A stretch of DNA of 35,745 nucleotides from Pirellula sp. (lineage in GTDB: Bacteria; Planctomycetota; Planctomycetia; Pirellulales; Pirellulaceae): assembly GCA_021300155.1 (NCBI GenBank), contig JAJTID010000122.1, forward strand, positions 1 through 35,745. Direction: 5' to 3'. Each line of letters opens with the position of its first letter. Within the stretch, counting starts at the first letter, position 1. The notes beneath the pieces were generated by a model. That model did not search any database. It was not told the DNA's origin and saw only the letters and a program-made list of their open reading frames with translations. The position numbers and the translations under genes are program-made. Below are positions 521 through 26,903 of this stretch, piece after piece.

Positions 521-1624
521 CTACTTGACTAACTGGCACTGGATAGATACTTGGTCGCCGGACCGCTGCTCCCAAAACACGAAAACTTGCGATTCATTTC
601 CGTCACCAACCGCGACGATTGGATCTCGAGCGTTTTCAGAAATTATTCTCGAGTTGCCATTTCCAAGCTTCACCAGTCGCAATTGGCCGTCGCGTTTGGT
701 GAGCCAAACGACGTAAGTCCCGCTCGGGCCGCTTGCGATCCACGGTTGTTCACCGTGCTCCAACATGGTTTCCAGCGAGGCCTCTCCAACGGACGTGAAG
801 ATAGTACCGCCACGACGCCAAGCGGAAACAACTTCGCCCTTCGGTGCGATCGCCAACATGCCTCCGTCCATTGGGCAAGCATTTAAGCTCCAATGTTGGA
901 GTCCAAGTCGTTCTCCGATGCCAAATGTCTCTCCTTGATTGTTGGAAGAAACAAGATACATGTCACGATTCCCCTTTAAAGAGTTTCGAAACAAGATGTG
1001 AACGAAATTACCTTCGGCCACAACCGATGGATGGCAACACTCACAGATACTTCCATCGGGCGATTGGTAAACCAACTGATTCTTACTCCAACTTGCCCCT
1101 TGATCGATCGATTTCGAGGCAAAGAGCTGAGTCCGCTTCGCACGGAGGTCAAGCCAAACGCACCACAATGTTCCATCGTTACTCGATGTCATTGCGTGCA
1201 GGCCCTCCCGCGCCGAGGCCTCAATGTCGTTGACCTTTACTGGGCCAAGCCAGCTCTTTCCACCGTCCAGTGTGCGGTACGCCAAAACGTCCCCATCAGT
1301 GCCTTTACCCTTCGGACCTCCAATTGCAGTGATGACAATAGAATCGCCGGCATGAGCAATCCGAGGACCTCTTCGCATTCCGAGAGACATGTTAGGTACC
1401 CTAAAGGCGACGAGCGGTGAGGGCTTCTCGTCCGATCCAACTCTGCAGTAATAAACGTCATCTCCAACGCCGAATGTAACATGTGCGACACCCCTCGAGT
1501 CCATACTCGCTTGCGGTTGTTTCGGTGATCTCTCGCTGCTTCCCGAGAAGATCGTGAAAGGTTCGGAACCAGAGACCAAAGCGGGAACAAATATTAGAAG
1601 AGCTGCCAAAGTAGTCTTAAGCAT
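521..1624 (-). CDS. Exported sialidase-fold (BNR repeat) protein
   Basis: This 367-residue protein has an N-terminal signal peptide (about 1-20) and looks like a six-bladed beta-propeller of the sialidase/BNR superfamily. Three Asp-box-like motifs are visible: TLDGGKSW at 118-125, SIDQGASW at 172-179, and a degenerate one near 227-234. A CECC cluster at 194-197 followed by His-Pro, and an NACPMDGG segment near 249-256, suggest metal or thiol chemistry. Sialidase activity cannot be claimed because the catalytic residues were not identified. The start overlaps the 3' end of the upstream RND pump gene by 8 nt (ATGCTTAA), which points to translational coupling. It is the last gene of the ECF-led efflux operon. 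A role as a periplasmic scaffold or metal ligand is inferred from context only. Confidence 0.8.
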   Translation of the reverse strand: MLKTTLAALLIFVPALVSGSEPFTIFSGSSERSPKQPQASMDSRGVAHVTFGVGDDVYYCRVGSDEKPSPLVAFRVPNMSLGMRRGPRIAHAGDSIVITAIGGPKGKGTDGDVLAYRTLDGGKSWLGPVKVNDIEASAREGLHAMTSSNDGTLWCVWLDLRAKRTQLFASKSIDQGASWSKNQLVYQSPDGSICECCHPSVVAEGNFVHILFRNSLKGNRDMYLVSSNNQGETFGIGERLGLQHWSLNACPMDGGMLAIAPKGEVVSAWRRGGTIFTSVGEASLETMLEHGEQPWIASGPSGTYVVWLTKRDGQLRLVKLGNGNSRIISENARDPIVAVGDGNESQVFVFWEQRSGDQVSIQCQLVK

Positions 1625-4600
1625 TCGGTGAACTCACTTGGTCTGACCTGGATAGCCCAGAGCCAAAAAGGTGAAAAAGTGCAGGAGTAACGATTTGGTC
1701 TAGAACGGTTGATGCAATCATGCCACCAAACAATACGACGGAAAGCGGATAAAGAATCTCCTTGCCAGGTTCGCCGTACCCGAACAATAAAGGAAGCAGT
1801 CCTACAAAGCTGGTCATCGCTGTCATCATCACTGGTGCAAGGCGCTCTAGGCTTCCACGGATAATCATTTCTTTCCCAAATGGCATGCCGTCAACCTCCA
1901 TCAAGTGTTGATAATGCGAGATCATCATGATGCCGTTACGACTAACAATGCCTATGAGCGTGATGAATCCAACCCAATGCGCCAAAGATAAATGAGTTGC
2001 CTGTATCCAGATACCAGGCCAGAGATACCATGCTTGGCCCGCGAACTCCGAAGCTTCCGGTTTATTCACAATCAGGAGCGCCACAATCGCGCCCAGCGCT
2101 GCCAATGGAACGTTCACAATTACCTGAAGTGCAGAACGCTGCGAGCCGAGGGCTTTCATCAGCAGCAGATAGACGCCGACGATACTCAGTAGTGCAAATC
2201 CCCATAGTCTATAGGTGGCTTGCTGCTGAGCTTCGAATTGTCCGCTGTAGTCGAGATAATACTCACCTGGCAGCGCATGAAGAGATTGCTCAACCGGCTG
2301 GAGTGCTAGTTTGATATCGCGTACAACACTCGCCAAGTCTCGCCCCTGGACATTGCAGAAAACGGCGACTCGTCGTTGAACATGTTCACGATTGAGCACA
2401 TTAGGACCAGTCGTATCCAGGATTTCTGCAACTTGTGACAGCGCGACTTTCGCTCCTGAGGGCGTTTCGAGAATTGTCTCTTCAATCACGTTCGGATCGC
2501 GACGAGACTCCTCGTCGTACCAAACAACCAAACCAAAGTATTTATCCTCTTCAATGATCTGCGAAACGATGGTGCCTTTGAATGCCGTTTCTAAAATTTC
2601 GGCGACATCGCCGGGTGCGAGACCGTAACGCGAAGCTTCTTCACGCTTCACCCGCATTTGCAATTGGGAGATCTCGATCTGAGGTTCGATTTGAAGGTCA
2701 ACTACCCCTTCGATCTCTTGCATGCGTGCCTGGACGTCGTATGCCGCAGTTCGCAATTCTCGTAAGTCCGGGCCAAACACCTTCACAGCGATCTGAGCAC
2801 GAATTCCAGACATCATGTGATCCAGTCGGTGCGAGATCGGTTGGCCGATATTTACTGCCGCACCAGGAATACTCGATATTCGTTCTCGCAGATCGGCGAT
2901 CACAACTTCCTGTGGTCGCCCATGGTACTCAAAACTCCAAAGATGCGCGATCGGAATGGCTCGCAGGATAGTGTTCAGCCAACCTGCTTTCTCTGTCTTG
3001 TGCTGAGCGAATCGCACCTCGAACTCTGTATTGTTCACACCTTCTGCATGCTCATCCAATTCTGCGCGCCCCGTCCTGCGTGCAACTGACAGTACTTCGG
3101 GTACTTCAAGCAAAATCGATTCTACCCCACTAGCGATTCGCTGGCTCTCATCCAGCGAAGTACCCGGTTCAAGACGTAAATTGATAGTTGCTGTTCCTTC
3201 ATTGAACGGAGGCAGAAATTCGCCTCCCATCCATGGCAGTGTTAGACAACTCAATAAGACGAAAACACTAACACCAGCAAGTACGGTTCGAGGGCGGTTA
3301 AGCGTCCAGCGAAGTACGCGCTCGTCCCAGTGTTTCAACCAACGCATGATGAATGGTTCGCGTTTTTCAGCGAGAAACGGTGCGCGAGGTAGTAGAACGC
3401 TTGCAAGTACGGGTGTGAAAGTTAATGAAACCACCAAGGAGCAGAGTAATGCCACGATGTAAGCGACCCCAAGAGGAGCGAACAATCGTCCTTCGATGCC
3501 TGCCATCATAAACAACGGCAATACTACCAGAACCACAATTAGCGTCGCATAAACAATGGAGTTACGGACTTCACTGGAAGCCAAGAAGATAACTTCTAGA
3601 GCCGGTTTCTGAGAATCTGAAGGTAACTGCTTATTCTCACGCAATCGTCGGTAAATGTTCTCAACATCAACGATTGAGTCATCCACTAGGTCGCCAATCG
3701 CAACGGCAATCCCCCCCAAAGTCATCGTGTTGATCGTGATTCCAAACATATAGAAAACGATTACTGTCAATAGGATCGATAGCGGCATAGACGTTAGTGA
3801 GCTGATGCTAGTGCGAAAGTTGCCCATCAAAAGGAACAGAATCACTACGACCCAAATCGCACCGTCGCGTACCGCTTCGCTGACGTTGTCAACCGCTGCT
3901 TCAATGAAGTGACTTTGGCGAAAAATCTCGGATTCAATTTTGATATCGTCTGGTAATTCTTTTTGAAGCGAGACGAGCACCTCATTGATCCTGTGATCAA
4001 GTTTGATCGTGTCAGCCTCTGGCTGTTTCTGTATCGTCAGCATGACCGCCGTACCGCCTCGCAACTCTTGGTAGGGCTTTGCATGGGAATGCGACTGTTG
4101 ACTTGACGACTTGGGAGAAAGGTGCGAACCATCGTTCATGTGCGCATGGGTAGCGTCATGACTCACCGCAAAGTTCACGTCCGGTTCGATCTTCACTACA
4201 GCGGAAGCATCGCCGCGTTTAACTGGCCCACCGAGCCTCACGTCAGCCACATCGCCGATGCGAATTGGCACTTGGTCGCGCCAGAGAATGGGAGTCGCTG
4301 CTACTTCGTCCAGCGTTAGAGACTGCCCTTGAATTCGAAGCAACGATTCTTTCTCACCGCGGCTCATCACACCACCGCCAGCGAGAACGTTGGCTTTCGT
4401 CGTTGCATCTGTTAGTTGTGCCAATGTCACGTTGCGAGCAGCTAGACGCGAGGGGGAAGTTAGCACTTGGAACTGCTTCAGAATTCCTCCCATTACGGAG
4501 ACTTGAGACACGCCCTCAACCGCTAGTAGACGATTTCGGACCGTGAACTCGCCAATCGTCCGAAGTTCCATCGCTTTCGCATTGGCTTCATCCGGTGTGT

Positions 4601-5051
4601 TTGGTTTGAAATCGCTACGCAATGCTAACAGCATGATTTCGCCCATGATTGACGAAATGGGTGCAAGAGTAGGATTCGTGTTAGGTGGTAGTTTCGACTG
4701 GGCTAGTTGAAGCTTTTCGTTGACGATCTGACGGTCTATAAATATGTCCGTGCCCCACTCGAATTCGACCCAGATGATTGATAAACCAATCGCTGAAGAA
4801 GAGCGAACGCGTTTTACACCCGTCGCACCATTTAGCAGCAACTCGATGGGGCGAGTTACTAGCACCTCCACTTCTTCTGGCGCGAATCCCGGTGCCTCGG
4901 TCATAATCGTGACCGTCGGGCGATTTAGATCGGGGAAAACATCGACTGGCATTGTCTGAAGTAGTGATGCTCCAATTAACATCACCAGCAAAGACGCAAT
5001 CGCGACGATGGCGCGGTTTTGAAGTGAAAAACGTATAATGGTATCGAGCAA
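1617..5051 (-). CDS. CzcA/CusA-family RND metal efflux pump, His-rich insertion
   Basis: This 1144-residue inner-membrane proton antiporter belongs to the heavy-metal-efflux RND family. It has one N-terminal membrane helix, two large periplasmic loops and C-terminal helix bundles. The helix-4 proton-relay motif reads LVDDSIVDVEN near residues 448-460, the same subtype as the third pump of the window and unlike the DFG subtype of the second. The start is TTG at 5051: the N-terminus (LDTIIRFSLQ) matches its paralogue, and GAGG lies about 8 nt upstream, overlapping the adaptor's stop. Residues about 297-325 of the first periplasmic loop form an extra segment with six histidines. The family's usual length is about 1030-1070, so the excess is largely this insert. 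The substrate is probably a divalent or monovalent soft metal; the exact ion cannot be read from the sequence. Confidence 0.93.
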   Translation of the reverse strand: MLDTIIRFSLQNRAIVAIASLLVMLIGASLLQTMPVDVFPDLNRPTVTIMTEAPGFAPEEVEVLVTRPIELLLNGATGVKRVRSSSAIGLSIIWVEFEWGTDIFIDRQIVNEKLQLAQSKLPPNTNPTLAPISSIMGEIMLLALRSDFKPNTPDEANAKAMELRTIGEFTVRNRLLAVEGVSQVSVMGGILKQFQVLTSPSRLAARNVTLAQLTDATTKANVLAGGGVMSRGEKESLLRIQGQSLTLDEVAATPILWRDQVPIRIGDVADVRLGGPVKRGDASAVVKIEPDVNFAVSHDATHAHMNDGSHLSPKSSSQQSHSHAKPYQELRGGTAVMLTIQKQPEADTIKLDHRINEVLVSLQKELPDDIKIESEIFRQSHFIEAAVDNVSEAVRDGAIWVVVILFLLMGNFRTSISSLTSMPLSILLTVIVFYMFGITINTMTLGGIAVAIGDLVDDSIVDVENIYRRLRENKQLPSDSQKPALEVIFLASSEVRNSIVYATLIVVLVVLPLFMMAGIEGRLFAPLGVAYIVALLCSLVVSLTFTPVLASVLLPRAPFLAEKREPFIMRWLKHWDERVLRWTLNRPRTVLAGVSVFVLLSCLTLPWMGGEFLPPFNEGTATINLRLEPGTSLDESQRIASGVESILLEVPEVLSVARRTGRAELDEHAEGVNNTEFEVRFAQHKTEKAGWLNTILRAIPIAHLWSFEYHGRPQEVVIADLRERISSIPGAAVNIGQPISHRLDHMMSGIRAQIAVKVFGPDLRELRTAAYDVQARMQEIEGVVDLQIEPQIEISQLQMRVKREEASRYGLAPGDVAEILETAFKGTIVSQIIEEDKYFGLVVWYDEESRRDPNVIEETILETPSGAKVALSQVAEILDTTGPNVLNREHVQRRVAVFCNVQGRDLASVVRDIKLALQPVEQSLHALPGEYYLDYSGQFEAQQQATYRLWGFALLSIVGVYLLLMKALGSQRSALQVIVNVPLAALGAIVALLIVNKPEASEFAGQAWYLWPGIWIQATHLSLAHWVGFITLIGIVSRNGIMMISHYQHLMEVDGMPFGKEMIIRGSLERLAPVMMTAMTSFVGLLPLLFGYGEPGKEILYPLSVVLFGGMIASTVLDQIVTPALFHLFGSGLSRSDQVSSPNA

Positions 5052-5056
5052 GTGAA

Positions 5057-7282
5057 CTACCTCAAAGATGCGAAGGCCGTCTGCAGCTCTCGACTACCAA
5101 CGGTTACAACCGACTCACCAGCTTCGATACCAGAAACAATCTCGGTATACTGTCCATCGGTCTGACCAATAGTTACGCGTCGTCGCTCCATATTGCCGTC
5201 GTTCTTTCGAACAAAGCTAAAAAGGTGCAGTCCATCACGGAGAATTGCAGATGCAGGAATTGCTAAACGCGAACTCTTGGTTCCCACTGGCAGGCCGACT
5301 GTCATTAACGCGCCGGAGCTAAATTGTGGGATATTGGAATCGTCTACGCGGGGAGTTTTTGGAGTGAACCATATTCGCTGCGTTCTTGTGGACTCGCTTA
5401 GCGTTGGCCCAATTCGCGAAAGAACGACTGGAAGCCTTACTTCTGAGTCGGCGAGCAGGGATGCTACTCCAACTGCATCGACAGACATAGAAGCAACCTC
5501 TCTCGAAGGTACCTGGGCCTCGATCCAAAACGATTGCAAATCTTGGATTTCTACAAGAGGTTGATTGGCCGTTACGGTTTCACCGAGCGTGACCACAGAT
5601 GAGGCAATTCTCCCACTGATATTGGCACGAATTGGCAGGTAGTCTAGTATCCGTCGTTGATTGGCGATGGAGTCGATTTCGCTATCTGATAAACTCAACG
5701 TGGCGAGTTGTCGTCGCAGGCTTTGGGCACGTATCTCAAGTTGCTCCGCTTGTGCGCGTGTCTCCAAAACCAAGCGCATCGAGACCGCGTCTCCCTTGAC
5801 GCTTTCCAGCCGATCGGCGCGACGACGGGACAAGTCTGAGTCCAACGAGGTACTAATCAAGTCAAGCTGTAGCTTGTAGAATTCAGGTGAGGTGATCTCC
5901 ATTAGTTTATCGCCTTTTTTCACAGACCGGCCAGGACTTAGCGAATGGGACTGAACAGTTCCGTTCAACTGCGTCGTAAGGACACTTCGATTTTCGGGAG
6001 GCAAGGTAACTACCGCAGGAAGTTGAAGTGTTTTTGATACATCGCGATAACCAGCAGCCTCCGTTCGGATTCCCAAGCGTTGCTGTTCTTGGGCTGAGAG
6101 TCTTAGCACACCGAGGAAGAATAAACTCGAAAGCTCGTGGCCGCCTCTAACAACGACTCGATCGCCGGGAAATATCTCCCCTTGAATTACTTCAACCATT
6201 GATTCGGAGCTATGACCATCCGTCAATTTGCGACTACCAAGCCGCACGGTCCTCTTACGATACTCAGCGGTCGACCGAGTCGATGCTTCCTCGACAAAAA
6301 GATAGCTTTGTAGACCGTCGCTGTGTATAGCCCGTTGCGGAACTGCAATCGTGTCCGCTTGTTCCGATGTGTATATCGTTGCCGAGCCTACAAGCCCTGG
6401 AATGACCGAAGGATGATTCAATGTCACCCATGCTGATATCACTTGCGTTTTTGAGTCGAGAACCGCGTCCATTCGATCGATGACTCCCTCTACAGATAGG
6501 GATGAACTCGGAAAATGGACGCTTACTCGATTGCCCACTTTAACGTTGAATATGTCCTTCTCAAGTAATTGGAGGCGTACCCAAACTTCGTCGGTATTCA
6601 CGATTTCAAAAAGATGCTCGAACGCTTCAACGTACTTACCTTCAGCTAAGTCGGAGTGGAGAATGCGTCCGCCAATCGGTGATCGAAGAGGGAAAAGCAG
6701 TTCGCTCGAGGGATCGAGTTGAGAACTTTGAAGTGAAACTCCGAGCGTGCGCGCTCGCAGTTCCGATACCTCCAAGCGATTTCGGCTTTGCTCTACCGCA
6801 TTCTCGATATCCAAAAGACGCTGCATTGGTACTGCGCCCGCTTGCGCAGAAGGTCTTGTCATCTCCAACAGGCGAAGGTTTAAAGCTAAATCATTCTTTG
6901 CCTGGAGAAAATCAAGTCGTACCAACTCAAGTTCTCTGCTACTCATCTCGGCGACTACCTGATTCTTTTCAACCAAATCTCCTGGTCGAACAAGAAGTTT
7001 GGAGATGCGTCCAGCTATCTGAGCTGACCCAAACGCTTTGGCCTGCCAAGGAGTCACTGATTCCGCATATACGTTCATTTTCGAAGCAACTGTGCCAACA
7101 ACAACCTCTTCTGACAGAAGCCCAATCGCACTTCGCGCTTGCCCAGAAAGCGTCACATAACCGTTCTGAGTATCGACTTGAACTCCTTTTGTCGGAAGTG
7201 GTTGATGACCCTCGTGGGCATAGCATATTGAACTTGTAGTTAGCCAAAATATGCTCAAAAGACCGCTCTTCAATATGCTCAC
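5057..7282 (-). CDS. Tandem-fused double RND periplasmic adaptor
   Basis: At 741 residues this is about twice the usual length of a membrane-fusion protein (CzcB/CusB family). It reads as two complete adaptor modules in series. Module 1 (about 30-370) and module 2 (about 375-741) each begin with a short beta segment ending in a GI/GL step, followed by a lipoyl half (SAQIAGRISKLLVRPGDLVEKNQ; TQLNGTVQSHSLSPG), a helical hairpin, a second lipoyl half (LRSPIGGRIL; IRANISGRIASSVV), a beta-barrel and a membrane-proximal domain. A signal peptide ends near residue 22, followed by HEGH. The start is GTG at 7282, with GAGG 6 nt upstream. It ends 5 nt before the RND pump gene. Adaptors normally work as six subunits per trimeric pump, so a fused pair implies three chains per pump (inference). 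Confidence 0.9.
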   Translation of the reverse strand: MSILKSGLLSIFWLTTSSICYAHEGHQPLPTKGVQVDTQNGYVTLSGQARSAIGLLSEEVVVGTVASKMNVYAESVTPWQAKAFGSAQIAGRISKLLVRPGDLVEKNQVVAEMSSRELELVRLDFLQAKNDLALNLRLLEMTRPSAQAGAVPMQRLLDIENAVEQSRNRLEVSELRARTLGVSLQSSQLDPSSELLFPLRSPIGGRILHSDLAEGKYVEAFEHLFEIVNTDEVWVRLQLLEKDIFNVKVGNRVSVHFPSSSLSVEGVIDRMDAVLDSKTQVISAWVTLNHPSVIPGLVGSATIYTSEQADTIAVPQRAIHSDGLQSYLFVEEASTRSTAEYRKRTVRLGSRKLTDGHSSESMVEVIQGEIFPGDRVVVRGGHELSSLFFLGVLRLSAQEQQRLGIRTEAAGYRDVSKTLQLPAVVTLPPENRSVLTTQLNGTVQSHSLSPGRSVKKGDKLMEITSPEFYKLQLDLISTSLDSDLSRRRADRLESVKGDAVSMRLVLETRAQAEQLEIRAQSLRRQLATLSLSDSEIDSIANQRRILDYLPIRANISGRIASSVVTLGETVTANQPLVEIQDLQSFWIEAQVPSREVASMSVDAVGVASLLADSEVRLPVVLSRIGPTLSESTRTQRIWFTPKTPRVDDSNIPQFSSGALMTVGLPVGTKSSRLAIPASAILRDGLHLFSFVRKNDGNMERRRVTIGQTDGQYTEIVSGIEAGESVVTVGSRELQTAFASLR

Positions 7283-7297: not shown

Positions 7298-8212
7298 CTA
7301 CTTCACAAACGAATCGGGTTCAGGCAACGCATCGGATGAAGCTTTGGCTGTTTTGAGATACTCGTCAACGCAGGGTGGACAGCAAAACTGGTAAGGTTTG
7401 CCGTCAATAACCCAAGTAAAGTTCGGGTTCGCCTTGGTCTCTGTGATGGGACAGATTCGATCACCAGGCTTTGGATTCATATCGTGTGCGGACTTGATCC
7501 CCTTGAACTTCTGGGACGCTGTTACGTTTCCGTTAGCCGTAATATCAGCCGCTGTGTATCGTCCGCCGGGAGTAAGATAGAGTTCCCTCTCCGCATCATC
7601 CGCCAGCTTATCGGGCATATCGGGAGAATTTCCATGGCTCTCTTCACCCGAGACAAATCCAAGCCGGAATCGTTCGCCATCAATTCGAATATTCGGAATG
7701 GTCACGTCCAGTTTTCGGCCGACTAATTCCTTTGGCAACTTGCCAACGAAAAGCGACGTTTTTCCATTGCCATCGCCATCCTGCGGAGTCGGCTCGAAGG
7801 CAATGGCTTTAGAATCCGCATCACCGTCCGCTTTCACGAATCCCTTCAGCGTTTGACTCTCGACATCGATGACGCGACTCTCGTCCTTTCCAAGAGTGTA
7901 TAGTCGAATCGCCCCTTCAGAGTCGACAACTGCTTCAACATGGTAACTGTCTCGCCCTAACGAAACCATGATTCCACCATGTGCACCGGCTTTGTGCCCG
8001 TGTTCGGCGTCGGAATCTCCCGGCACGGACGAAGCCAGCGACGCTTCGGATGTCTTGTTGTTCGCAGTTAGGCTTGTTCGAGCCATATCTTTCTGAGAAT
8101 TCTTAGCGGCCGAAACGTCCTGTTGATTCGTTGGTTTGCATCCAGCGAGGAACAGCACGCCTAGAGCCGAACTCGCAACCAAACTTAAAAGAAGACATTT
8201 GCTTTTTGTCAT
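7298..8212 (-). CDS. Lipoprotein with beta domain and C-terminal TRASH-like motif
   Basis: This 304-residue lipoprotein has the lipobox LFLAGC (Cys at about 25). The middle region contains an H-x3-A-H-G-G motif followed by a beta-rich domain that resembles the lipoprotein at 33445-33975. Such small proteins recur beside planctomycete RND metal pumps. The C-terminus carries a TRASH/YHS-type metal-binding pattern: Cys254 in CPIT, then CCPPC at 277-281, with 22 residues between Cys254 and Cys277. It lies 15 nt upstream of the double adaptor and 30 nt downstream of the two-TRASH protein, so it belongs to the same operon. The likely role is metal capture or hand-over at the periplasmic face of the pump. 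The start codon is supported by the signal peptide; the ribosome-binding site is weak. Confidence 0.85.
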   Translation of the reverse strand: MTKSKCLLLSLVASSALGVLFLAGCKPTNQQDVSAAKNSQKDMARTSLTANNKTSEASLASSVPGDSDAEHGHKAGAHGGIMVSLGRDSYHVEAVVDSEGAIRLYTLGKDESRVIDVESQTLKGFVKADGDADSKAIAFEPTPQDGDGNGKTSLFVGKLPKELVGRKLDVTIPNIRIDGERFRLGFVSGEESHGNSPDMPDKLADDAERELYLTPGGRYTAADITANGNVTASQKFKGIKSAHDMNPKPGDRICPITETKANPNFTWVIDGKPYQFCCPPCVDEYLKTAKASSDALPEPDSFVK

Positions 8213-8242: not shown

Positions 8243-8713
8243 CTATTTCTTGAGCGAGGCTTCGTAAAGATCGTCAAGCTTGGCAAGAAATTTCTCTGGC
8301 GCAGCCGTCATTTTCTTTACACAGGGAGGACAGCAAACATAAAAGAAATGACCTTCCACAATCCCATGCTTGGACTTCTCGGAGACTTCATTGTCGGTCA
8401 TCACGAGACAATGCCCTTGAGCCTTCGCAAAGTTACTCCGAATCTTGTCGAGATACTTTGCGTCGGGCTTTGACTTCAAACAATCTGCGCAACAGACATA
8501 GAGAATTTCCTTGGTCTCTGGATCAGTCATCTTGACTGGCTTTGCATGGCTAGTCAGCGATTCGCCGGAGACTGGACAGATTGCTTGTACTGAGATTCTT
8601 AGTCGCTCGCGGCGTTGCTCTGGACTTTCCTTTTGTGGTTCATCCGCAAAGGAAAATCCAACCAGACAAACCGAAACAGCGATCACAAAAAACTTACCAA
8701 ATGCACGAATCAT
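8243..8713 (-). CDS. Exported protein with two TRASH-like metal-binding motifs
   Basis: This 156-residue secreted protein has a signal peptide at about 1-23. Two copies of a Cys pattern are seen: C46 PVSG ... C74 C75 xx C78, and C102 LVM ... C127 C128 PP C131. This is the arrangement of TRASH/YHS domains, which bind soft metals in metal-resistance proteins. An in-frame ATG 30 nt upstream (8743) is rejected because AAGAGG lies just before the ATG at 8713 and the signal peptide begins there. The second motif closely matches the C-terminus of the next gene (YxxCCPPCV in both), suggesting that the two proteins share a motif by duplication. A periplasmic metal-binding function is inferred. Confidence 0.85.
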   Translation of the reverse strand: MIRAFGKFFVIAVSVCLVGFSFADEPQKESPEQRRERLRISVQAICPVSGESLTSHAKPVKMTDPETKEILYVCCADCLKSKPDAKYLDKIRSNFAKAQGHCLVMTDNEVSEKSKHGIVEGHFFYVCCPPCVKKMTAAPEKFLAKLDDLYEASLKK

Positions 8714-8746
8714 CTTAACCTCTTCATACTTGAAAACGAACACTAA

Positions 8747-9574
8747 CTACAACTTCGTTGAAGCCACCCACTGGTTGACTTCGGCAATATCGTTTGCGCC
8801 AATCATTGTCAACTGACGATCTTCGTTCTTCCAGCTCACGGCGAGCTGTCCTGCGGCTTCAATAATCTTGCATGTCTTGCCGCTACACTGGGTCTCAATG
8901 GCTGGCAGACTGCCAAACCAAACAGGTTGTTCATCTTTGTGCTCAAACAGGATCAGCGATGTACCATCATTACGTTCGCATATCGACGCCGAACATTTGC
9001 AACAAGGCATATTGAGCACATGCGTTGATACTCGAGTGAAACCTTCGGGAATGCCCTTAAAAACAGCCGGCTCATAGCCAAGGTAGCTCTCGGTTGCATT
9101 GGCATCGAGTTCCTTTCCTTGATACTTTGATACCAACTTTGCGATTGCTACCTTAGGCTCCGACTTAGCTGCACGGATGACCTCTTGAAAGTCAACAGCC
9201 AATGCAGCATGTTCATGAGAAGCTTCTCCTGCATCATGATCCGACGTCGGATTCCTCGCAAAAAACCAGATCAGTGATACAGAGGCGGCCGTCACTAGAA
9301 CCGCATAGATCCAGCTTTTCGGCAACGGCTTAGAAGGAATCGAGACGATTCGATCACTATCCAGTCGTGGAGCAACCTGCTCCCAAAGGGAATTGGTGTC
9401 AACACTCGCCTCGGACTGCCGCATGAGCGTACCTATCGCTTGAAACTCGACAATCGACGCGCGGCAGGCGTTGCAATGATCACAGTGCGACTCGAAATTC
9501 GTTCGCTCTTGTGCATCGAGTTCGTTATCGATGTACGCCGACAATCGTTCTTCAATCCAATCGCAATTTTTCAT
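8747..9574 (-). CDS. ZAS anti-sigma factor with Cys-rich outer domain
   Basis: This 275-residue protein has an N-terminal zinc-binding anti-sigma domain with H30-x3-C34-x2-C37, one membrane helix at about 88-106, and an extracytoplasmic domain. The outer domain begins with a His-containing stretch (HDAGEASHEH, 113-122) and carries two Cys clusters, C191 C192 K C194 ... C199 and C230 ... C235. The ATG at 9574 overlaps the sigma gene's TAA by one base (TAATG) and GGGAGG lies directly upstream, so an ATG 12 nt earlier is not used. Anti-sigma factors of this class hold their ECF sigma at the membrane until a signal arrives. Here the outer Cys/His clusters make a metal signal plausible. That role is inference from motif and operon position. 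Confidence 0.88.
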   Translation of the reverse strand: MKNCDWIEERLSAYIDNELDAQERTNFESHCDHCNACRASIVEFQAIGTLMRQSEASVDTNSLWEQVAPRLDSDRIVSIPSKPLPKSWIYAVLVTAASVSLIWFFARNPTSDHDAGEASHEHAALAVDFQEVIRAAKSEPKVAIAKLVSKYQGKELDANATESYLGYEPAVFKGIPEGFTRVSTHVLNMPCCKCSASICERNDGTSLILFEHKDEQPVWFGSLPAIETQCSGKTCKIIEAAGQLAVSWKNEDRQLTMIGANDIAEVNQWVASTKL

Positions 9575-10167
9575 TATGCCTCCCAACCCAGTTGGATTAG
9601 CGAAGTCCTAAGTTCTTTTCTTGCTTTGTTCAGTCTTGAACCTACCGTTCCTTCAGGAATACCAAGCACACTTGCAATTGCCTCGTATCCTAACCCTTCG
9701 ACTTCCTTCATGTGCAGAATTGCCCTCTGTTCGCCCGAGATTTTCTCCATCGCAAGGTTCAAAATCTCTGCCTCATCGACTTGGGTTTGGCGGTTTGGAT
9801 TTTCAGACATTTCGGTTCCCAATGCGACTTTATATGCTCTCTGTGCCTCTCGATTGGTCTTTCGTAAGTACTGCAAACTTTGATTGACCGCCATTCGATG
9901 AGCCCAAGTCTCTAGCGAGGATTCAAATCGGAACTGATCAAGCTTCGAAAACAACTGGATGACAAAATCTTGCATCACATCGTCCGCGTCGCTGGTCCCT
10001 ACAATCTTTCGAATCACTCGATAAATCCTCGAAGCCAGAAGCTCATAAATTCGCTTCTGGTACTCGCGACTTCCGCTCGTTGCATTTTTGATCCAAACTG
10101 CCAACTCGTCATCGGGCGGTCTGCCAGATGTCGAATCTGAAAAGTTGGATGACTCTGCTCGATGCAT
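9574..10167 (-). CDS. ECF-type RNA polymerase sigma factor
   Basis: This 197-residue protein shows region 2 (DDVMQDFVIQLFSKL with the following W-A-H-R-M-A-V-N core, about 61-101) and region 4 (EQRAILHMKEVEGLGYEAIA then a GTVGSRLNKAR helix, about 145-185), with no region 3. This is the two-domain form of extracytoplasmic-function sigma factors. GGAG lies 6 nt upstream of its ATG. It is the first gene of a seven-gene operon that continues through anti-sigma, TRASH proteins, adaptor and RND pump to the sialidase-like protein. It is the only DNA-level regulator recognised in the window. By analogy with CnrH of Cupriavidus, it may activate its own operon when metal relieves the anti-sigma. Confidence 0.92.
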   Translation of the reverse strand: MHRAESSNFSDSTSGRPPDDELAVWIKNATSGSREYQKRIYELLASRIYRVIRKIVGTSDADDVMQDFVIQLFSKLDQFRFESSLETWAHRMAVNQSLQYLRKTNREAQRAYKVALGTEMSENPNRQTQVDEAEILNLAMEKISGEQRAILHMKEVEGLGYEAIASVLGIPEGTVGSRLNKARKELRTSLIQLGWEA

Positions 10168-10183
10168 TCTTCACTCCATGCTG

Positions 10184-10230
10184 CAAAAAAAGTGAAACCT
10201 GCCCGAAGTTCTTTTGAGACTTCAGGCAGG
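10184..10230 (-). terminator. Rho-independent terminator before the sigma gene
   Basis: On the minus strand a 12-bp stem (10219-10230 paired with 10198-10209, one G-T pair) is followed by a T-rich tract ending in seven T (10184-10190). It lies between the 57-residue gene and the ECF sigma gene. It should separate the two Cys-rich genes from the sigma-led operon, or act as a read-through control. Confidence 0.75.
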
Positions 10231-10253
10231 CTGACCTTAGCTATGCCGTAGGT

Positions 10254-10427
10254 TTAACGGCGACAGCAGGAACGATTGTCGAGACAGCAGTACGCATTCT
10301 TCATGCAGCAGATGGGTTGCCCCTTTGCCGACATCGAAGACGCGTTCGCTGCGATTGCGTTATCGCTGAAAGAAAGACCGATCGAAGCCAACGTGACGAG
10401 ACCAAGCAATGCAATTTTCGTAAACAT
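10254..10427 (-). CDS. 57-residue exported protein with three Cys pairs
   Basis: This small gene has ATG preceded by AGGTGA at good spacing, an uninterrupted 57-codon frame, a clear signal peptide (about 1-26, ending ANAIAA-like) and a tail with three CC pairs (PICC, YCC and SCCRR). It is followed at once by a terminator, which supports a real, separately ended transcript. Six cysteines in the last 20 residues suggest soft-metal binding or a disulfide-rich miniprotein. No family was recognised. It sits between another exported Cys-rich protein and the ECF sigma gene, all on one strand. Confidence 0.75.
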   Translation of the reverse strand: MFTKIALLGLVTLASIGLSFSDNAIAANASSMSAKGQPICCMKNAYCCLDNRSCCRR

Positions 10428-10531
10428 GATTCACCTATGGTTTTTGAATTAACTGAGAGAGATATGTTGCCATCCAATAGCGGATGAGCAACGCTTCCAA
10501 ACAAACTCGCAAAGAGAATTTATTTGGACTC

Positions 10532-11017
10532 TCAATTCCTCCAAACACAGGCAATCGACTGCCAAGAGTGTCCGCCAAAGCGAATGGGTACTTCGAACTT
10601 TCCAAAGCTCGATACGGCGGTCGCTGTAGGTTTAATCGATGCAAATGCAACGCATGCCCAAGCGATGGACTTCGCGGGTACAGAAACCGACTTTGGTGGC
10701 TCGCTTGCACTCAGAACTTGCTTGCTGCAAATACATTGAGCACCCTGACAGATTAAACACGACGGAAACAACGATTTCGCCGCCGACCGGACAGAATCAC
10801 TCGTTTTTACTGTCGGACGAGCAGTACATTTGGGGCATCGGGCCGGCTGACTGGCAAGTGATTTCGATGACGCAACATCTGCTTCAGCAGTCGCAGACTG
10901 CTTTCCGCTAATGCTCTCGAGGAACGATCGACCTAAGCAGCAACACGAAACCCCACCCAGAATTTGGCTGTAGGCAACCGCCATCAGCAAAACAGAATGA
11001 AGAATCGTTCGGAACAT
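10532..11017 (-). CDS. Exported Cys-rich protein heading the first efflux module
   Basis: This 161-residue protein has a hydrophobic signal region (about 1-22), then CCC at 25-27, CPKC at 61-64, and a cluster at C87, C90, C95 and C97. The remaining C-terminal half is low in recognisable motifs. The architecture (signal, early Cys group, long linker, second CxxC/CxC group, featureless tail) resembles three other genes of the window at 14561, 24284 and 27080, each lying just upstream of an efflux gene set. It reads leftward toward the 57-residue gene and the ECF operon. No clear ribosome-binding site precedes the ATG. A metal-binding role is inferred. Confidence 0.7.
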   Translation of the reverse strand: MFRTILHSVLLMAVAYSQILGGVSCCCLGRSFLESISGKQSATAEADVASSKSLASQPARCPKCTARPTVKTSDSVRSAAKSLFPSCLICQGAQCICSKQVLSASEPPKSVSVPAKSIAWACVAFASIKPTATAVSSFGKFEVPIRFGGHSWQSIACVWRN

Positions 11018-11464
11018 AACGCACGTCAGATACAGGTTTTCTCGGGGGCGACACAGATTGGATGCTGCCGGACGCCGTTTCCTTCACGAGCGTTGCATAA
11101 TTTTAGCTACGGCGCGTGGAAGTCTCCATCGATCGTAGGGATTACGGCTAATCTACCCGTTTTCAAGAAACTCAGGACTTCCAATTTCAAGAAAGCTCGA
11201 AAATCAGCGCATTCTCAATCGCTTCGAACTTCGGAAGTCTTATGAAGATTCGGCAGTTTCGGGCATCTAAGCCATTTTGGTCAAATTCTCTGCCAAAGAC
11301 AGAAGCAAAGAGAGCAAGCTGGTTGAAACTCAAACGTAGCTGGTGGTTGGGCACAGAAAGAAAATCGATCTATTGCGTGAAGAAACAGCTTTGCAGTTGC
11401 ATCAGACTAATGTGAAGCCTAGGTGCTTCGAAAGAATCGAGTCTGTTTACAAGGAAAAATTGAA
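11018..11464. other. Divergent intergenic region
   Basis: This 447-nt stretch separates the leftward Cys-rich gene from the rightward metallothionein-like gene and must hold promoters for both. No gene was found in it. The segment GCTTCGAAAGAAT at 11426-11438 recurs as GCTTCCAAAGAAT (14075-14087) before the second metallothionein-like gene, so part of the leader is duplicated. No clear ECF or sigma-70 promoter could be assigned by eye. Confidence 0.5.
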
Positions 11465-11800
11465 ATGAAGATTGCCGCATCGTTCGTGTTGTTGTGTCTG
11501 ATTGGACTTGGCGTGGCTATGGGGGCAAACTATGTAAGCAAGTCAAGTTTGTCTGTCGAATCGAAGGTTTGTGCCTGTGAATCCTGCTGCCCAGATGGCG
11601 GATGCTGCTGTGAAACGGGTGTCTGTACTTGCGAAGACTGTAAGTGCGATTGCTGCGCGGCTGATTCCAAGGGCTGCAATGCAGGTTGCTGTGATAACAA
11701 GTCTGGCGCATCCCATTCGAACGATTCTAGTGTTGAGCAGGGCACTTGTCCGAAGTGCCCTCCCAAATCACCAACCAAAGGCCCCAAGAAGCTGAGTTAG
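11465..11800 (+). CDS. Exported metallothionein-like protein, copy 1
   Basis: This 111-residue protein starts with a signal peptide or membrane anchor (MKIAASFVLLCLIGLGVAMG) followed by a domain with about 18 cysteines. They occur in CxC, CC, CCC and CxxC groups between residues about 34 and 75, plus a C-terminal CPKC. Asp, Glu, Lys and Gly fill the gaps and His is nearly absent. An upstream in-frame start is rejected because AAGGA precedes the ATG at 11465 and the paralogue aligns from there. Known bacterial metallothioneins (SmtA, MymT) are cytosolic, whereas this one appears exported. The close paralogue lies at 14126. The likely role is binding soft metal ions outside the cytoplasm. Confidence 0.85.
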   Translation: MKIAASFVLLCLIGLGVAMGANYVSKSSLSVESKVCACESCCPDGGCCCETGVCTCEDCKCDCCAADSKGCNAGCCDNKSGASHSNDSSVEQGTCPKCPPKSPTKGPKKLS

Positions 11801-11871
11801 TTTTCTCGAAAGTGTCTTGTGATTCGACTTTCCCAGGGCAACTGTTTCAAAGCAAACCCCTTAAGTACAGG

Positions 11872-13758: not shown

Positions 13759-14125
13759 CATTTTTTGCCAAGTCTGTTTGGGGTGGGCTTCTGCTCTTGC
13801 GACAGACTATGCAATGTCTAGCATTCAGCGGGTTGACTATTCAATCCGCTGATTTGCTTTTTGGGAATTCCTGGAGGCTTCAACGAGTTGGCTTGCTTGC
13901 GGGAGACGTTAAGTCAAACCAAGGAATTTTAAACTGGTTTGTGGGTAATTACCCGCAAGCACGATGTGAGCTTTTCCGATGATCAGAAGAAGGATGCGAA
14001 GTAGATGGCAACGGATCGAAATTTCCGTGAAGTATTGCAGCCTTCTCGGCATCCAACACTTGAGAAGCACTAAAGCTTCCAAAGAATGATATCATATACC
14101 AGTGCCATTTTTACGGGAAAATGAA
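13759..14125. other. Intergenic region with nested inverted repeats
   Basis: No gene is supported in these 367 nt. They hold outer arms GCTTGCGGG (13895-13903) and CCCGCAAGC (13952-13960), inner arms AAACCA (13916-13921) and TGGTTT (13935-13940), and the perfect palindrome GGGTAATTACCC (13943-13954). The right part shares GCTTCCAAAGAAT with the leader of the first metallothionein-like gene. Promoter and operator functions for the next gene are plausible. Confidence 0.5.
13943..13954. promoter_or_regulatory. Perfect 12-bp palindrome, candidate operator
   Basis: GGGTAATTACCC is identical on both strands and sits about 170 nt before the second metallothionein-like gene, overlapping one arm of a larger 9-bp inverted repeat. 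Such sites often bind dimeric regulators. No cognate regulator gene was seen in the window, so this is a structural observation only. Confidence 0.4.
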
Positions 14126-14422
14126 ATGAAGATTGCTGCATCGTTGGTTGTGTTGTGTTTGATTGGTCTTGGCGTGGCGATGGGGGCAAACTACGCATGC
14201 AAGTCAAGCTTGAATGCCGAATCGAAGGTTTGTGCCTGCGAAACCTGCTGTCCCGATGGCGGTTGCTGCTGTGAAACCGGCGTTTGCTCTTGTGATGATT
14301 GCCAATGCGATTGCTGCGCCGAGGGAGCAACCGGCTGCTTGGCTGGTTGCTGCACCGACAAAGTCGCAACCAACCCCACAGATAAACCAGCGACTTGCAC
14401 CAAGGGTTGTTGTAAGGAGTAA
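14126..14422 (+). CDS. Exported metallothionein-like protein, copy 2
   Basis: This 98-residue paralogue of the protein at 11465 has the same signal/anchor segment (MKIAASLVVLCLIGLGVAMG) and about 20 cysteines after it, ending in CTKGCCKE. The block from KVCAC to CDCC is nearly identical to copy 1, while the tails differ, so the copies have diverged after duplication. GGGAAAATGAA precedes ATG 14126; an in-frame start 24 nt earlier is not preferred. A Cys-rich exported protein and the second RND system follow. Binding of soft metal ions outside the cytoplasm is the likely role. Confidence 0.85.
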   Translation: MKIAASLVVLCLIGLGVAMGANYACKSSLNAESKVCACETCCPDGGCCCETGVCSCDDCQCDCCAEGATGCLAGCCTDKVATNPTDKPATCTKGCCKE

Positions 14423-15045: not shown

Positions 15046-15088
15046 CTGTCCGTCTTCATTTAATGAGGGTGCTACAGACTGCGGACAG
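15046..15088. repeat. Inverted repeat upstream of the second adaptor gene
   Basis: CTGTCCG (15046-15052) and CGGACAG (15082-15088) are perfect 7-bp arms with a 29-nt gap. They lie within the 160-nt leader of the adaptor gene at 15132. This may be a regulator-binding site or leader structure; no further support is visible. Confidence 0.35.
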
Positions 15089-15131
15089 GGCAATCTACAT
15101 CGCGTCAATTATTAAACATATGGAGTTAGCT

Positions 15132-16808
15132 ATGATTCGCTATCCCTCCGGTTCCGTTTTGCAGGAACCAGACAATGCACTTAAAAGCCAAAATGGCGGT
15201 GAGTCGTTGTTGCCAGCGAGCGAGACGTTTCCATCTACGAAGCCGAACTATACAAAGCAAACGCTGGCGAAATTCCTTAACGCGTTGGGGCCGACGCTCG
15301 TTCTGGTTGGATTCGCGGCGGTCTTTTACTTCGGACACCATAACGATTGGAAGATCCCCAAGTTTGGAGCTCTAACTGGAACCGTAAAACCTACAGCCAA
15401 GGATTGGTGCGAGGAACATGGTGTGCCAGAATCGATTTGCGTCGAGTGCGATCCTTCATTGATGTCTAAGGGCCCTGACTTTGGATGGTGCCCTGAGCAT
15501 GGAATTCACAATTGTCCTTTGCATCACCCGGAAGTTGCACAACTCAAAGAGGTACCCAGTGTACTTCCGTCTGACCTTGAACGGGCGGCACGTGCGATGT
15601 CCGTCGTCCCACGAAAAGAGAACAATAGTGCCTGCGAAATCTACAAAACGCGCATCCAATTCGCTTCGGTAGAATCGGTTCGGCAAGCGGGTGTGGACGT
15701 AGAGTTGGTCGAGCGTCAGCCTATTGCTGAATCGATTCATACCAGTGGGGCGATCGTTTATGACCCAACTCGAAAGGCTAGTTTGGCTTCTCGCGTGGCC
15801 GGTAGTGTCTGGACTGTCGAAAAGAATGTTGGCGATTCCGTGGCGAAAGGCGAAGTGCTTGCAATTATCGATGCTGCTGAAGTCGGCGGACTAAAGACTG
15901 CATTGATGCGATCACTTGCTGAGCGAAAACTACAAAGTCAAAACGTCTCTCGACTTACCGAAGCCCGAGAAGCAATCGTGGGATCTCGAATTTTTGACGC
16001 CCAAGCTGCTTATTCGAAAGCCCAAGCTGATGTCTTGAGTGCGGAACAATCTCTTAGAAATCTTGGCTTGCCCGTGCAAGTGACAGCGTTGCAGACGCTA
16101 TCCGAACAAGAGGTTCTTGACCAACTGCGATTGATCGGAATCCCGGACTCATTTCGTGCTCGACTCAACGGTCAATTGAGCTCGTCGAATCTGATGCCGA
16201 TCTTTTCGCCGCTGGACGGTGTCGTCCTCGAACGCACGGTTGCACCGGGAGAAGTAGTCGACTCGACCCGCATCCTTTTTCAGATTGCCGATGTTCGCCA
16301 AATGTGGATGACACTGAATGTCCCGCTAGAAAACATGAATCAATTGGCGATCGGGCAAACCGTCACGTTTCGTGCCGACGGAAGTCGCGAAATGATCAAG
16401 GGCAAGCTGGATTGGATCAGTACTTCGGCGGATAAAACGACACGTATGCTGCAAGTCCGCGCGGTGCTAAACAATTTCGACGGAAGGCTTCGTAATGAAA
16501 CGTTTGGAACCGGGGAAGTCATTTTGCGTTCGGAATCCGACGCAATCGTCATACCCGCCGGTTCGTCACATTGGGAAGGATGTTGCCAAGTGGTATTCGT
16601 TCGTGACAAGCACTACTTCGACAGTCCCGATAGCTACAAAGTCTTCCACGTCCGATCGGTTCGCTTGGGGGCAACCAACGGTAAGTACACCGAAGTGATT
16701 GCTGGTGTATTACCAGGTGAAGTAATCGCAACTGCCGGCAGCGACGTGTTGCGGGCTCAACTTCTTAAGAACAATCTCGGCGCGGGCTGCGATTGCGTCG
16801 CTAAATAG
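15132..16808 (+). CDS. RND periplasmic adaptor with N-terminal WCxEH metal motif
   Basis: This 558-residue CzcB/CusB-type adaptor is anchored by one membrane helix (about 52-68). After the helix comes a Cys/His module: WCEEHGVPESICVEC at 92-106 and a degenerate second copy WCPEHGIHNCPLHHPEV at 119-135. The lipoyl halves (SRVAGSVWTVEKNVGDSVAKG and FSPLDGVVLERTVAPGEVV), a helical hairpin, a beta-barrel and a C-terminal domain follow. GGAG at 6 nt supports ATG 15132; an ATG 69 nt upstream is rejected. It ends 9 nt before its pump gene, whose ribosome site overlaps this gene's stop. The Cys/His module probably collects metal for the pump, a role similar to N-terminal metal sites in other CusB/CzcB proteins. 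Confidence 0.9.
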   Translation: MIRYPSGSVLQEPDNALKSQNGGESLLPASETFPSTKPNYTKQTLAKFLNALGPTLVLVGFAAVFYFGHHNDWKIPKFGALTGTVKPTAKDWCEEHGVPESICVECDPSLMSKGPDFGWCPEHGIHNCPLHHPEVAQLKEVPSVLPSDLERAARAMSVVPRKENNSACEIYKTRIQFASVESVRQAGVDVELVERQPIAESIHTSGAIVYDPTRKASLASRVAGSVWTVEKNVGDSVAKGEVLAIIDAAEVGGLKTALMRSLAERKLQSQNVSRLTEAREAIVGSRIFDAQAAYSKAQADVLSAEQSLRNLGLPVQVTALQTLSEQEVLDQLRLIGIPDSFRARLNGQLSSSNLMPIFSPLDGVVLERTVAPGEVVDSTRILFQIADVRQMWMTLNVPLENMNQLAIGQTVTFRADGSREMIKGKLDWISTSADKTTRMLQVRAVLNNFDGRLRNETFGTGEVILRSESDAIVIPAGSSHWEGCCQVVFVRDKHYFDSPDSYKVFHVRSVRLGATNGKYTEVIAGVLPGEVIATAGSDVLRAQLLKNNLGAGCDCVAK

Positions 16809-16817
16809 GAGACTGTA

Positions 16818-19800
16818 ATGCTGAACTGGATTATTGATGCCTCACTTAAACATCGTGCTCTCGTCATCCTTGTGACAGTATTGTTCGCGGTCATCGGTGG
16901 ATTCTCGCTCCAACAACTTGACATCGATGCGTTCCCCGATACGACGCCGGTGATGATTCAAATCAACACCGTTGCTCCGTCGCTAGCGTCCGAAGAAATT
17001 GAACGCCAAATCACGTTCCCAGTTGAACAGGCAATCAGTGGCCTCCCAAAATTGAGTCAACTCCGTTCGATATCTAAATTCGGGTTGTCACAAGTCGTAG
17101 TCATTTTCGATGATGGCGTTGATGTCTACTTTGCGAGACAGTTGATCAACGAGCGTCTTTCGACGGTCGTCCTTCCGGATGGTATTCAGCGTCCTCAGAT
17201 GGGGCCGGTGTCGACCGGATTGGGTGAGGTATTCCACTATGTATTGGTTTACGATGGCGTTGACTTCTCAAAGGTTTCGCAGGAAGAACGCATAAAGCGG
17301 TTTACAGAACTGCGAACTATACATGACTGGATCGTCAAGCCTCAGTTGCGGTCCGTACGCGGAGTCGCGGAAGTGAATAGTTGGGGTGGCTACGAGAAGC
17401 AGTACCAAATTAGGCTCGATCCCGAACGGTTATTCAAATTCGGCCTGACCTTTGAACAGGTTTCTGACGCAATTGAGTCCAACAACGAAAATGTCGGCGG
17501 TGGAACCGTCAACGACGGAAGCGAAATGCTGCTCGTTCACGGAATCGGTAGAACGGTAAACCTCAAAGAGATCGAAGACATCGTCATCACTTCCGAGGAT
17601 GGCGTACCCGTCCGCATTCGTGATGTTGCAGATGTGGAGATTGGTCACGAAATTCGTCGCGGTGCGGTTACTGCAAACGGTCGCGGTGAGGCAGTACTGG
17701 GTCTGGGTTTCATGTTGATGGGCGAGAATAGCCACCATGTCACGTGGGCCATTAAAGACAAAGTGAATGCCATTCGAGAGAGTTTGCCTCCGGGAGTAAA
17801 GCTGCAAACTGTCTACGATCGGACCGAATTGATCGATCATGTTATTCACACCGTTCAAAAGAATCTGTTCGAGGGCGGTCTACTCGTCGTGGCTGTTTTG
17901 TTTGTCTTTCTTGGCAATCTACGCGCGGGAATCATTGTGGCGATGGCGATACCACTTTCAATGTTGTTCGCCTTCTCGGGGATGCTGAAGTTTGGGATCG
18001 CAGCCAGTCTGCTCAGCTTGGGTGCGATCGACTTTGGGTTGGTTGTCGATAGCTCGGTCGTGATGATCGAAAACTGTGTTCGCCACTTGGCACACAATCG
18101 AGATGGACGAAGCCGACTGCAAATCATTCGCGATGCAGCAATTGAGGTCCGCAAACCAACCATGTTTGGGGAGTTGATCATCATGATCGTCTACCTTCCG
18201 ATCCTAACTTTGGAAGGAGTCGAAGGTAAGCTGTTTCGCCCTATGGCTATGACAGTCATTTTGGCATTGGCTGGTTCGATGGTGTTATCGCTGACGTTGA
18301 TGCCGGTGTTGGCAAGTCTTTTCCTGCCGAAAAAGATCGAAGAAAAAGAACCGCTGCTGATTCGAGTACTGAAGCGGCTCTATGCACCGGTGCTCCGATT
18401 TACGATGCACCATAAAACGATTGTGATCGGATCGGCGCTTTTGCTGCTCGTGAGTGTATTCGCTCTCGTTGCTCCTAACCTTGGCTCAGAGTTCATTCCT
18501 CGCCTTTCTGAAGGTGCCATCACACTCAACGTTGTGCGACTTGCTGGAACGACGATGGAGGAGTCGATTCGATACAACACTAAAATGGAGCAAGTGCTGC
18601 TGGAGAAGTTTCCGGACGAGATTGCTCAGATTTGGAGTCGGATCGGAACGGCGGAGGTAGCCACGGACCCGATGGGAACGGAGTTGACGGACCTGTTTAT
18701 CACACTGCATCCACGAAAACAATGGAAGCGAGCTTCGACACAAGAGGAACTGACGACGCTCGTTCAAGAAGAATTACGAGATCTCCCTGGCCCTCGGCTT
18801 GCGATGTCGCAACCCATTGAAATGCGGATGAACGAAATGATCTCGGGAGTCCGTTCAGACGTTGCCGCTATCCTCTATGGTGACGATCTGGATCTGATGG
18901 TGGCCAAAGCATCGGAGGTCGAACGTGCTTTGAACTCGATACGAGGTGCGGCAGAGGTCAAAGTCGAACAAGTCTCTGGCCAACCGGTGTTGCAAATCCG
19001 AGTCAAGCAAGATGAAATTGCTCGATACGGTGTTACCGCGAGCACCGTTATGAATATCGTCCGCGCTCTGGGAACTCACAATGTCGGCGAAGTCTACGAA
19101 GGACAATTGAGATTTCCTTTGATCATTCGATTGCCCGAAAAGGCAAGGGCCGATCCTGAAGCAATCAGTCAAATACTCGTGGCGACCCCCAGTGGCGAAC
19201 GAATACCGCTTTCGCGTCTGGCGACGATCGAGAAGGTCCAAGGCCCGAACACGATCAAACGCGATTGGTATCAAAGACGGATCACGATCGAAGCCAACGT
19301 TCGTGGTCGCGATCTGGGCAGTTTCGTTGCCGAAGCCCAACAAGTCATCTCACAGAGAGTGCAATTGCCTGCCGGTCGTTACCGAATCGAATGGGGCGGG
19401 CAGTTTGAAAATCTTCAACGAGCACAAACGCGACTGATGATTGTCGTCCCCATTGCACTGTTGATGATCTTGTCGCTGCTGTATATGACCTATCGCAATT
19501 GGGTTGATTCCCTGAGAGTATTCACTGGCGTACCGTTCGCTTGGATCGGCGGCATTCTTGCACTTTGGGTTCGCGACATGCCGTTCTCGATCTCGGCGGC
19601 CGTCGGTTTCATTGCTTTGTCTGGGGTCGCCGTTCTCGACGACATGCTGTTGGTCTCTACGATTCGGCAGTTGCGCCGCCAAGGAAAATCACTTGATGAC
19701 GCTGTTGAAGAGGCAGCAATGACCAGGCTTCGACCAATCCTCATGACGACGTTGGTAGCTAGTCTCGGTTTTGTTCCTATGGCGTTTAGCGATGGCATGG

Positions 19801-20054: not shown

Positions 20055-20087
20055 CCCCTTGTTTCGGCAAAGCCGATGGAGATTTAA

Positions 20088-20441: not shown

Positions 20442-20449
20442 ATCCAGTA

Positions 20450-20512
20450 CGAATCATTGCAAAATCGCGGTCCTGCGGAGGAGTCCTAAATGGCCGCATT
20501 TTGCATGATTCG
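20450..20512 (+). promoter_or_regulatory. Long mRNA hairpin overlapping a strong ribosome site
   Basis: CGAATCATTGCAAAAT (20450-20465) pairs with ATTTTGCATGATTCG (20498-20512) with a single bulged T, and GCGG (20467-20470) pairs with CCGC (20494-20497). The 23-nt loop contains GGAGGAG followed by TCCTAA and ATG at 20490, so the best ribosome-binding site of the region lies inside this hairpin. A T-run occurs about 17 nt downstream. It may control translation of the HMA gene or act as a terminator/attenuator. Confidence 0.6.
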
Positions 20513-20558
20513 AAAGCTAAACTTATGTTTTTTTCCACCCAATGAAAGGATTCTGAAA

Positions 20559-20900: not shown

Positions 20901-20997
20901 TGGTTGTCACTGCGTGCATCCTTCGTCCTGTGCTTCACAGGGTGAAGGGTGTACGAGTGCGTCCGTTCGGAGTGCTTACATTTTGAGAATCCTAACT

Positions 20998-21474: not shown

Positions 21475-21514
21475 TGCCGACATTGTGGACAAATCAACAA
21501 GAGAAGCATACTTT

Positions 21515-26889: not shown

Positions 26890-26903
26890 GATTCGGAACA
26901 GAA

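Follow-up and report, generated by a model that had tools for sequence, protein, structure and literature searches.

Organization of the locus

On its minus strand, the window (the whole 35,745-nt stretch of DNA analysed here) carries a run of genes that includes an adaptor gene and the gene of its partner pump:

9574-10167, minus strand: ECF-type sigma factor, probable operon regulator (Sigma70_r2, r4_2)
8747-9586, minus strand: anti-sigma factor with a zinc finger and a further Cys-rich part (zf-HC2, RseA_N)
8243-8743, minus strand: 166-aa Cys-rich protein, in the same operon by position
7298-8212, minus strand: 304-aa His-rich protein with a Cys-rich (TRASH-like) C-terminal part (weak match to PF24273, below cut-off)
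5057-7282, minus strand: double RND periplasmic adaptor, GTG start, 741 aa (open reading frame, profile stretches, model with pLDDT 89.4)
1617-5051, minus strand: partner CusA/CzcA-like RND pump, TTG start, 1144 aa, 5 nt past the adaptor stop
521-1624, minus strand: 367-aa BNR-repeat-like protein past the pump, with an 8-nt overlap (BNR_2 just below the Pfam cut-off)

The first-pass annotation had put the fusion and the pump 5 nt apart, without naming their strand, and the open reading frames confirm this spacing. The partner pump scored 758.7 against ACR_tran, over the cut-off of 28, and 693.9 bits against TIGR00914 (CusA/CzcA), just below the cut-off of 701.45; it is therefore called CusA/CzcA-like only and is not filed as a member of that family. 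The pump is a candidate exporter of metal ions and lies in a metal context, as the window also encodes a P-type ATPase, an HMA protein and two more RND pumps. CnrYXH is a metal operon under sigma/anti-sigma control, and the operon in the window can be likened to it: judged from sequence, the locus looks like a metal operon controlled by a sigma/anti-sigma pair, in which both the metal and the regulation are putative.

Several features of the surrounding genes were observed in addition. The weak PF24273 match of the 304-aa protein falls in its C-terminal part and is its sole Pfam match, and the 166-aa Cys-rich protein has no match in Pfam or NCBIfam. Apart from its zinc finger, the anti-sigma factor has another Cys-rich segment, CCKCSASIC, which is a possible metal sensor. 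A metal island at 15063-33975 holds two more RND systems with single adaptors (15063-20054 and 27846-32611), an HMA-domain protein (20490), a P-type ATPase (21485-23638) and an outer-membrane efflux protein (24758-26275). By eye, the N-terminal parts of the 304-aa protein and of a 178-aa protein at 33439-33975 are similar and His-rich; both lie near RND pump genes, and the 178-aa protein has no Pfam match. Two small, secreted-looking and very Cys-rich proteins (11423-11800 and 14102-14422) are metallothionein-like and, again by eye, alike; the one at 11423-11800 has no Pfam match.

Two complete adaptor modules in one chain

Within the adaptor gene the following parts were delimited:

7217-7282, minus strand: putative signal peptide, residues 1-22, with cleavage between CYA and HEGH predicted from the -3/-1 rule
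7205-7216, minus strand: HEGH, predicted mature N-terminus, residues 23-26 (conservation)
6113-7186, minus strand: module 1, residues about 33-390, with hairpin 116-179 and H209, H223 and H382 (half-to-half alignment, model)
5060-6112, minus strand: module 2, residues 391-741, with hairpin 466-528 (half-to-half alignment, model)

The Pfam profiles HlyD_D23 and HlyD_3 each matched two stretches of the 741-aa chain, HlyD_D23 with a score of 176.6, over its cut-off of 30. Likewise, the NCBIfam profile TIGR01730 (RND_mfp) matched two stretches and reached 212.2 bits, over its cut-off of 94.9. Aligned with each other, modules 1 and 2 were 25% identical over 358 columns (E 3e-22). An AlphaFold2 model of the double adaptor, built from an alignment of 71 family members (A3), had a mean pLDDT of 89.4; both modules are individually well modelled, and the only figure for their overall placement is a pTM of 0.80. 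The predicted hairpin helices span residues 116-147 and 153-179 in module 1 and residues 466-494 and 502-528 in module 2, and each hairpin lies between lipoyl strands and is followed by barrel and C-terminal strands, the lipoyl, barrel and C-terminal domains being assigned from strand order. By this order of strands and helices, the domains required of an RND adaptor (lipoyl, hairpin, barrel and membrane-proximal) are all present twice.

The top PDB folds found with Foldseek were ZneB (3lnn, E 2.1e-21) and CusB (3ne5), with moderate TM-scores by target of 0.52-0.54 for ZneB 3lnn_A and CusB 3ne5. The target lengths near 340 and the TM-scores by query of 0.25-0.27 indicate that a single module was matched per hit. 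By sequence, the best PDB match to module 1 was ZneB, and module 2 was best matched by both adaptor copies of 6vej, a 695-residue chain whose match to module 1 was not significant and which we take to be an engineered TriA-TriB fusion.

The gene at 5057-7282 encodes two complete RND adaptor modules in one chain. The first-pass annotation had read the 741 residues as a fusion of two adaptor modules, which the double profile stretches, the 25% alignment and the model bear out, and had described the full adaptor plan as present twice, as the AlphaFold2 model confirms. It had also proposed looking for a half without a lipoyl or barrel domain; both halves are complete in the model, and the idea of one degenerate half was rejected, as neither half lacks any domain there.

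The fusion is real and recurs in planctomycetes

An identical protein is encoded on three other MAG contigs (L040, L041 and L051), in which the DNA of the gene differs from that of the window at 0, 9 and 1 of 2226 positions, respectively; since the protein is unchanged, these differences are silent. The same genome encodes two further fused paralogs, 70% and 54% identical, and a full-length double was found in 87 loci, 74 from a genome scan and 13 from genome searches, a count that includes the repeat-record pairs L058/L011, L105/L013 and L109/L015. That an assembly error or a frameshift had joined two separate genes, as the first-pass annotation had cautioned, is refuted by the three MAGs with the identical protein, the two paralogs and the 87 loci, and the chance of such an artefact is negligible. 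The same loci supply what the annotation had expected, namely adaptors of more than 650 residues elsewhere in planctomycetes.

The genome scan covered all phyla with two strict peptide patterns, one of which used HEGH and so biased this set toward HEGH; the best 80 of 88 matches gave 79 loci. The whole fusion was present in 74 of these, the other five running off contig ends, and 78 of the 79 loci from the best 80 of 88 matches were recorded as planctomycete. Judged by record titles and kinship, all doubles come from planctomycetes, the scan of other phyla having used strict patterns only. With even sampling of the phylum, at least 11 of 392 genomes carried a double, the own genome included; the two phylum searches, each of 392 genomes and seemingly of one and the same sample, scored the top two candidates per genome and may therefore under-count. 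In one of them the scores of doubles (at least 738.9 bits) and singles (at most 237.2 bits) did not overlap. A search of the family gave a full-length match in 6 of 60 genomes, again with the own genome included, and a partial match in three more.

Other candidates for doubles were rejected. A tblastn search of a plasmid collection gave 458 records, 39 of them covering at least 80% of the query; the 15 matches listed span about 1 kb each, which indicates single adaptors matched twice. Single modules throughout were also found in 14 regions with long open frames matching one module and in 20 regions of other single-adaptor matches.

The double adaptor is paired with one clade of RND pumps

We analysed the neighbourhood of the double adaptor in the 74 loci with the whole fusion. 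A pump of the window's type lay directly downstream in 72 of them, on the same strand and with its frame starting within 800 nt of the double; the two exceptions were L059, where a P-type ATPase gene lies between, and L072, where the contig ends. An outer-membrane factor was present in 14 of the 74 loci, and the window's own lies at 24758-26275. A His-rich, Cys-ended protein of about 300 aa was encoded upstream in 67 loci, in 32 of them at a distance of 200 nt or less. A search for further adaptor frames of 150 aa or more, reaching out 3.7 kb or as far as the contig extends, found none in any of the 74 loci.

In a FastTree phylogeny of pumps (120 rows), the 63 full-length pumps of double-adaptor loci formed one group with a starred support of 100; outside it fell the remaining 57 pumps, among them the other two RND pumps of the window. 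Frames of less than 900 aa or cut by the locus end were left out of this tree and identical rows were dropped (from 61 to 59 double-adaptor pumps), so that the window's pump stands in it as the identical copy L040_9190; the label for pumps of single adaptors (single_adaptor_pump) also takes in L155, a double without hairpins. Adaptor frames cut by a locus end were likewise dropped. Of 20 regions selected among the matches to the next most similar pumps, 19 have single adaptors and one is L155.

The L155 protein (9824-11866, minus strand, genome G004) is a different double adaptor: its open frame of 680 residues comprises two modules that are 28% identical and both lack a helical hairpin, and its neighbours are an RND pump of the pump3 type and an outer-membrane factor. 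Among the matches listed from 244 genomes of the phylum, with the top four candidates scored in each, there was no further full-length relative of it. Another unusual adaptor, at L143:4379-6583 in genome G130, is a 734-residue frame with one module, whose two matched parts lie about 270 residues apart; an exceptionally long hairpin may account for the gap.

As both modules lie in one chain and no other adaptor gene accompanies them, the protein is best read as a pre-made dimer. An equal dose of two unlike adaptors would also account for the fusion and the missing adaptor genes if the chain were a single precursor cleaved between module 1 and module 2, near residues 385-395, to give two ordinary adaptors at 1:1, in effect a polyprotein TriAB. 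The junction argues against this: it is short and well conserved (HELSSLF, then G-LRLS), in the model it consists of two short helices (381-388 and 397-403) with eight residues between them, where block pLDDT dips to 81 and 73, and by eye the alignment shows neither a second signal peptide nor a lipobox where module 2 begins. We therefore regard cleavage as improbable.

Modules 1 and 2 conserve different residues

In an alignment of 71 doubles, H23 and H26 were conserved in all 71 and E24 in 69. All 70 relatives have a signal-peptide-like start with HxGH (x being E, A, D or G), and in 68 of them the residue just before H23 is Ala or Gly. An Ala or Gly at position -1 fits cleavage by signal peptidase before H23, so that the mature chain probably starts with HEGH. 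Among 12 relatives from genome searches that used no pattern, 11 had HEGH and one HAGH. We compared this start with that of 59 other frames, comprising 58 single adaptors and the L155 double. HxGH was found anywhere in the N-terminal region in 19 of these, and a signal-peptide-like stretch ending at HxGH in only three (L154, L156 and L157); it is thus only the position at the end of the signal peptide that is particular.

Two further histidines mark module 1. H209 was His in 33 of 36 first modules, 2 of 36 second modules and none of 60 single adaptors, and H223 in 34 of 36, 1 of 36 and none of 60, respectively. The exceptions among the first modules were L016 and L078, which have neither histidine, and L014, which lacks H209. 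A third position, H382, was His in 31 of 36 first modules and no second module (0 of 36), and also in 14 of 60 singles, and is no special mark. Conservation of H23, H26, H209 and H223 suggests that they may act as metal ligands, and the extra histidines of module 1, together with the conserved free N-terminal histidine, favour it as the better candidate for metal binding. The suggestion of the first-pass annotation that the two modules might specialise gains support at the sequence level from the histidines restricted to module 1 and from the N-terminal HEGH.

Overall, the two modules were conserved to a similar extent, with a mean column entropy of 1.91 for module 1 and 1.97 for module 2 and a mean pairwise identity of 40% and 39%, respectively. 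This, together with the hairpins in both modules, indicates that neither module is a relic. Similar overall conservation and two complete hairpins would also be expected had redundant adaptors been joined by chance, with no specialisation and with either module sufficient. However, the modules conserve different residues, the fusion has been kept across very divergent planctomycetes, and no split form was seen beside this pump clade, and we consider such a neutral fusion unlikely, if somewhat less so than cleavage of the chain.

Origin of the double adaptor

A tree of modules was computed from 36 module pairs (of the 87 doubles) and both halves of L155, together with 60 single adaptors. In it, module 1 formed one side of a branch with a starred support of 99. 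Modules 1 and 2 together with three singles made up one group of 75 with a support of 92, below the starred level. The free search placed the three singles inside the module-2 group, and constrained searches then scored better: a tree holding module 2 together was 24.5 log units better than the free search (p-AU 0.884), and one holding modules 1 and 2 together without the three singles was 28.5 log units better (p-AU 0.912). The higher likelihood of the constrained trees favours one duplication followed by fusion, though it does not prove it. Fusion of adaptors from different families is not favoured, as modules 1 and 2 group together against the 60 singles.

The HEGH start is shared by L154, L156 and L157, the three single adaptors that adjoin the doubles in this tree, which makes a single adaptor with HEGH the likely ancestor. 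Such an adaptor would have been duplicated in tandem and then fused, the second copy losing its signal peptide. The family is patchy (11 of 392 genomes), and losses or horizontal transfer would be needed to explain its distribution.

Discussion

In Cus-type metal RND pumps, six CusB form a trimer of dimers on CusA, according to PMC4446572 and PMC13328181. The first-pass annotation had matched the double adaptor to this arrangement, and the match agrees both with these sources and with the absence of further adaptor frames near the double in the 74 loci. We think it likely that the protein is a natural covalent dimer of RND metal-efflux adaptors, three doubles replacing the six singles per pump. 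In the arrangement that we infer, in stoichiometry, pairing and positions as well as in metal binding and the metal itself, three copies of the double would sit on the pump trimer, with modules 1 and 2 at the two non-equivalent adaptor positions. The six-membered adaptor ring would then be assembled from three pre-paired units, giving a complex of three pump, three double-adaptor and three outer-membrane protein subunits. Module 1, with its HEGH N-terminus, H209 and H223, may serve in metal binding or sensing, and module 2 mainly in ring building and in contacts with the pump and the exit duct. A sharper version, in which the ring is asymmetric by covalent design, with module 1 a dedicated metal binder through the mature N-terminal histidine of HEGH, perhaps a histidine-brace-like copper site, together with H209 and H223, and module 2 structural, is tentative and in our judgement doubtful. 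If true, the double would make this the first RND system in nature to encode both unlike adaptor positions in one polypeptide and to give them different jobs.

Each module shares its domains and fold with CusB, ZneB and CzcB, and the partner pump is CusA/CzcA-like; in contrast to these adaptors, the planctomycete protein has two modules per chain and histidines specific to one module. TriABC-OpmH of P. aeruginosa likewise uses two unlike adaptors for one pump, and PMC4446572, PMC4338810 and PMC13328181 report that TriA and TriB are both required and that pumps with two adaptors, together with linked AcrA dimers, favour a dimer as the working unit. However, nature encodes TriA and TriB by two separate genes (PMC8277102), and the pump they serve is a drug pump, whereas the planctomycete double is a natural fusion beside a metal-type pump. 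Tandem fusions of AcrA are also linked adaptor dimers and are functional (Xu et al. 2011a, as cited in PMC4446572 and PMC4338810), but those are laboratory constructs. The same two sources describe DSY0927 of Desulfitobacterium hafniense, in which two membrane fusion proteins are naturally fused; it belongs to an ABC-type transporter, is treated under Gram-positive bacteria in PMC4338810, and has an N-terminal half without a coiled coil. The planctomycete double has hairpins in both halves and its adjacent transporter is an RND pump, so that it is not an ABC membrane fusion protein of the DSY0927 type. Fused adaptors from nature (DSY0927), adaptor pairs encoded by two genes (TriAB) and engineered fusions are thus already known, and what is new is an RND double that is natural, conserved and built of unequal modules; searches of the open-licence PMC literature showed no description of a natural RND double adaptor.

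The double adaptor unites within a single molecule what other bacteria produce as two separate parts. When six identical adaptors sit on a three-fold pump they fill two unlike kinds of position, and as the subunits do not differ, the role of either position is difficult to test. If the pairing proposed here holds, each position would have its own sequence, which would allow mutation position by position and make adaptor asymmetry testable. Both modules and the pump have diverged greatly while the linked form persisted, which speaks for a dimer as the working unit.
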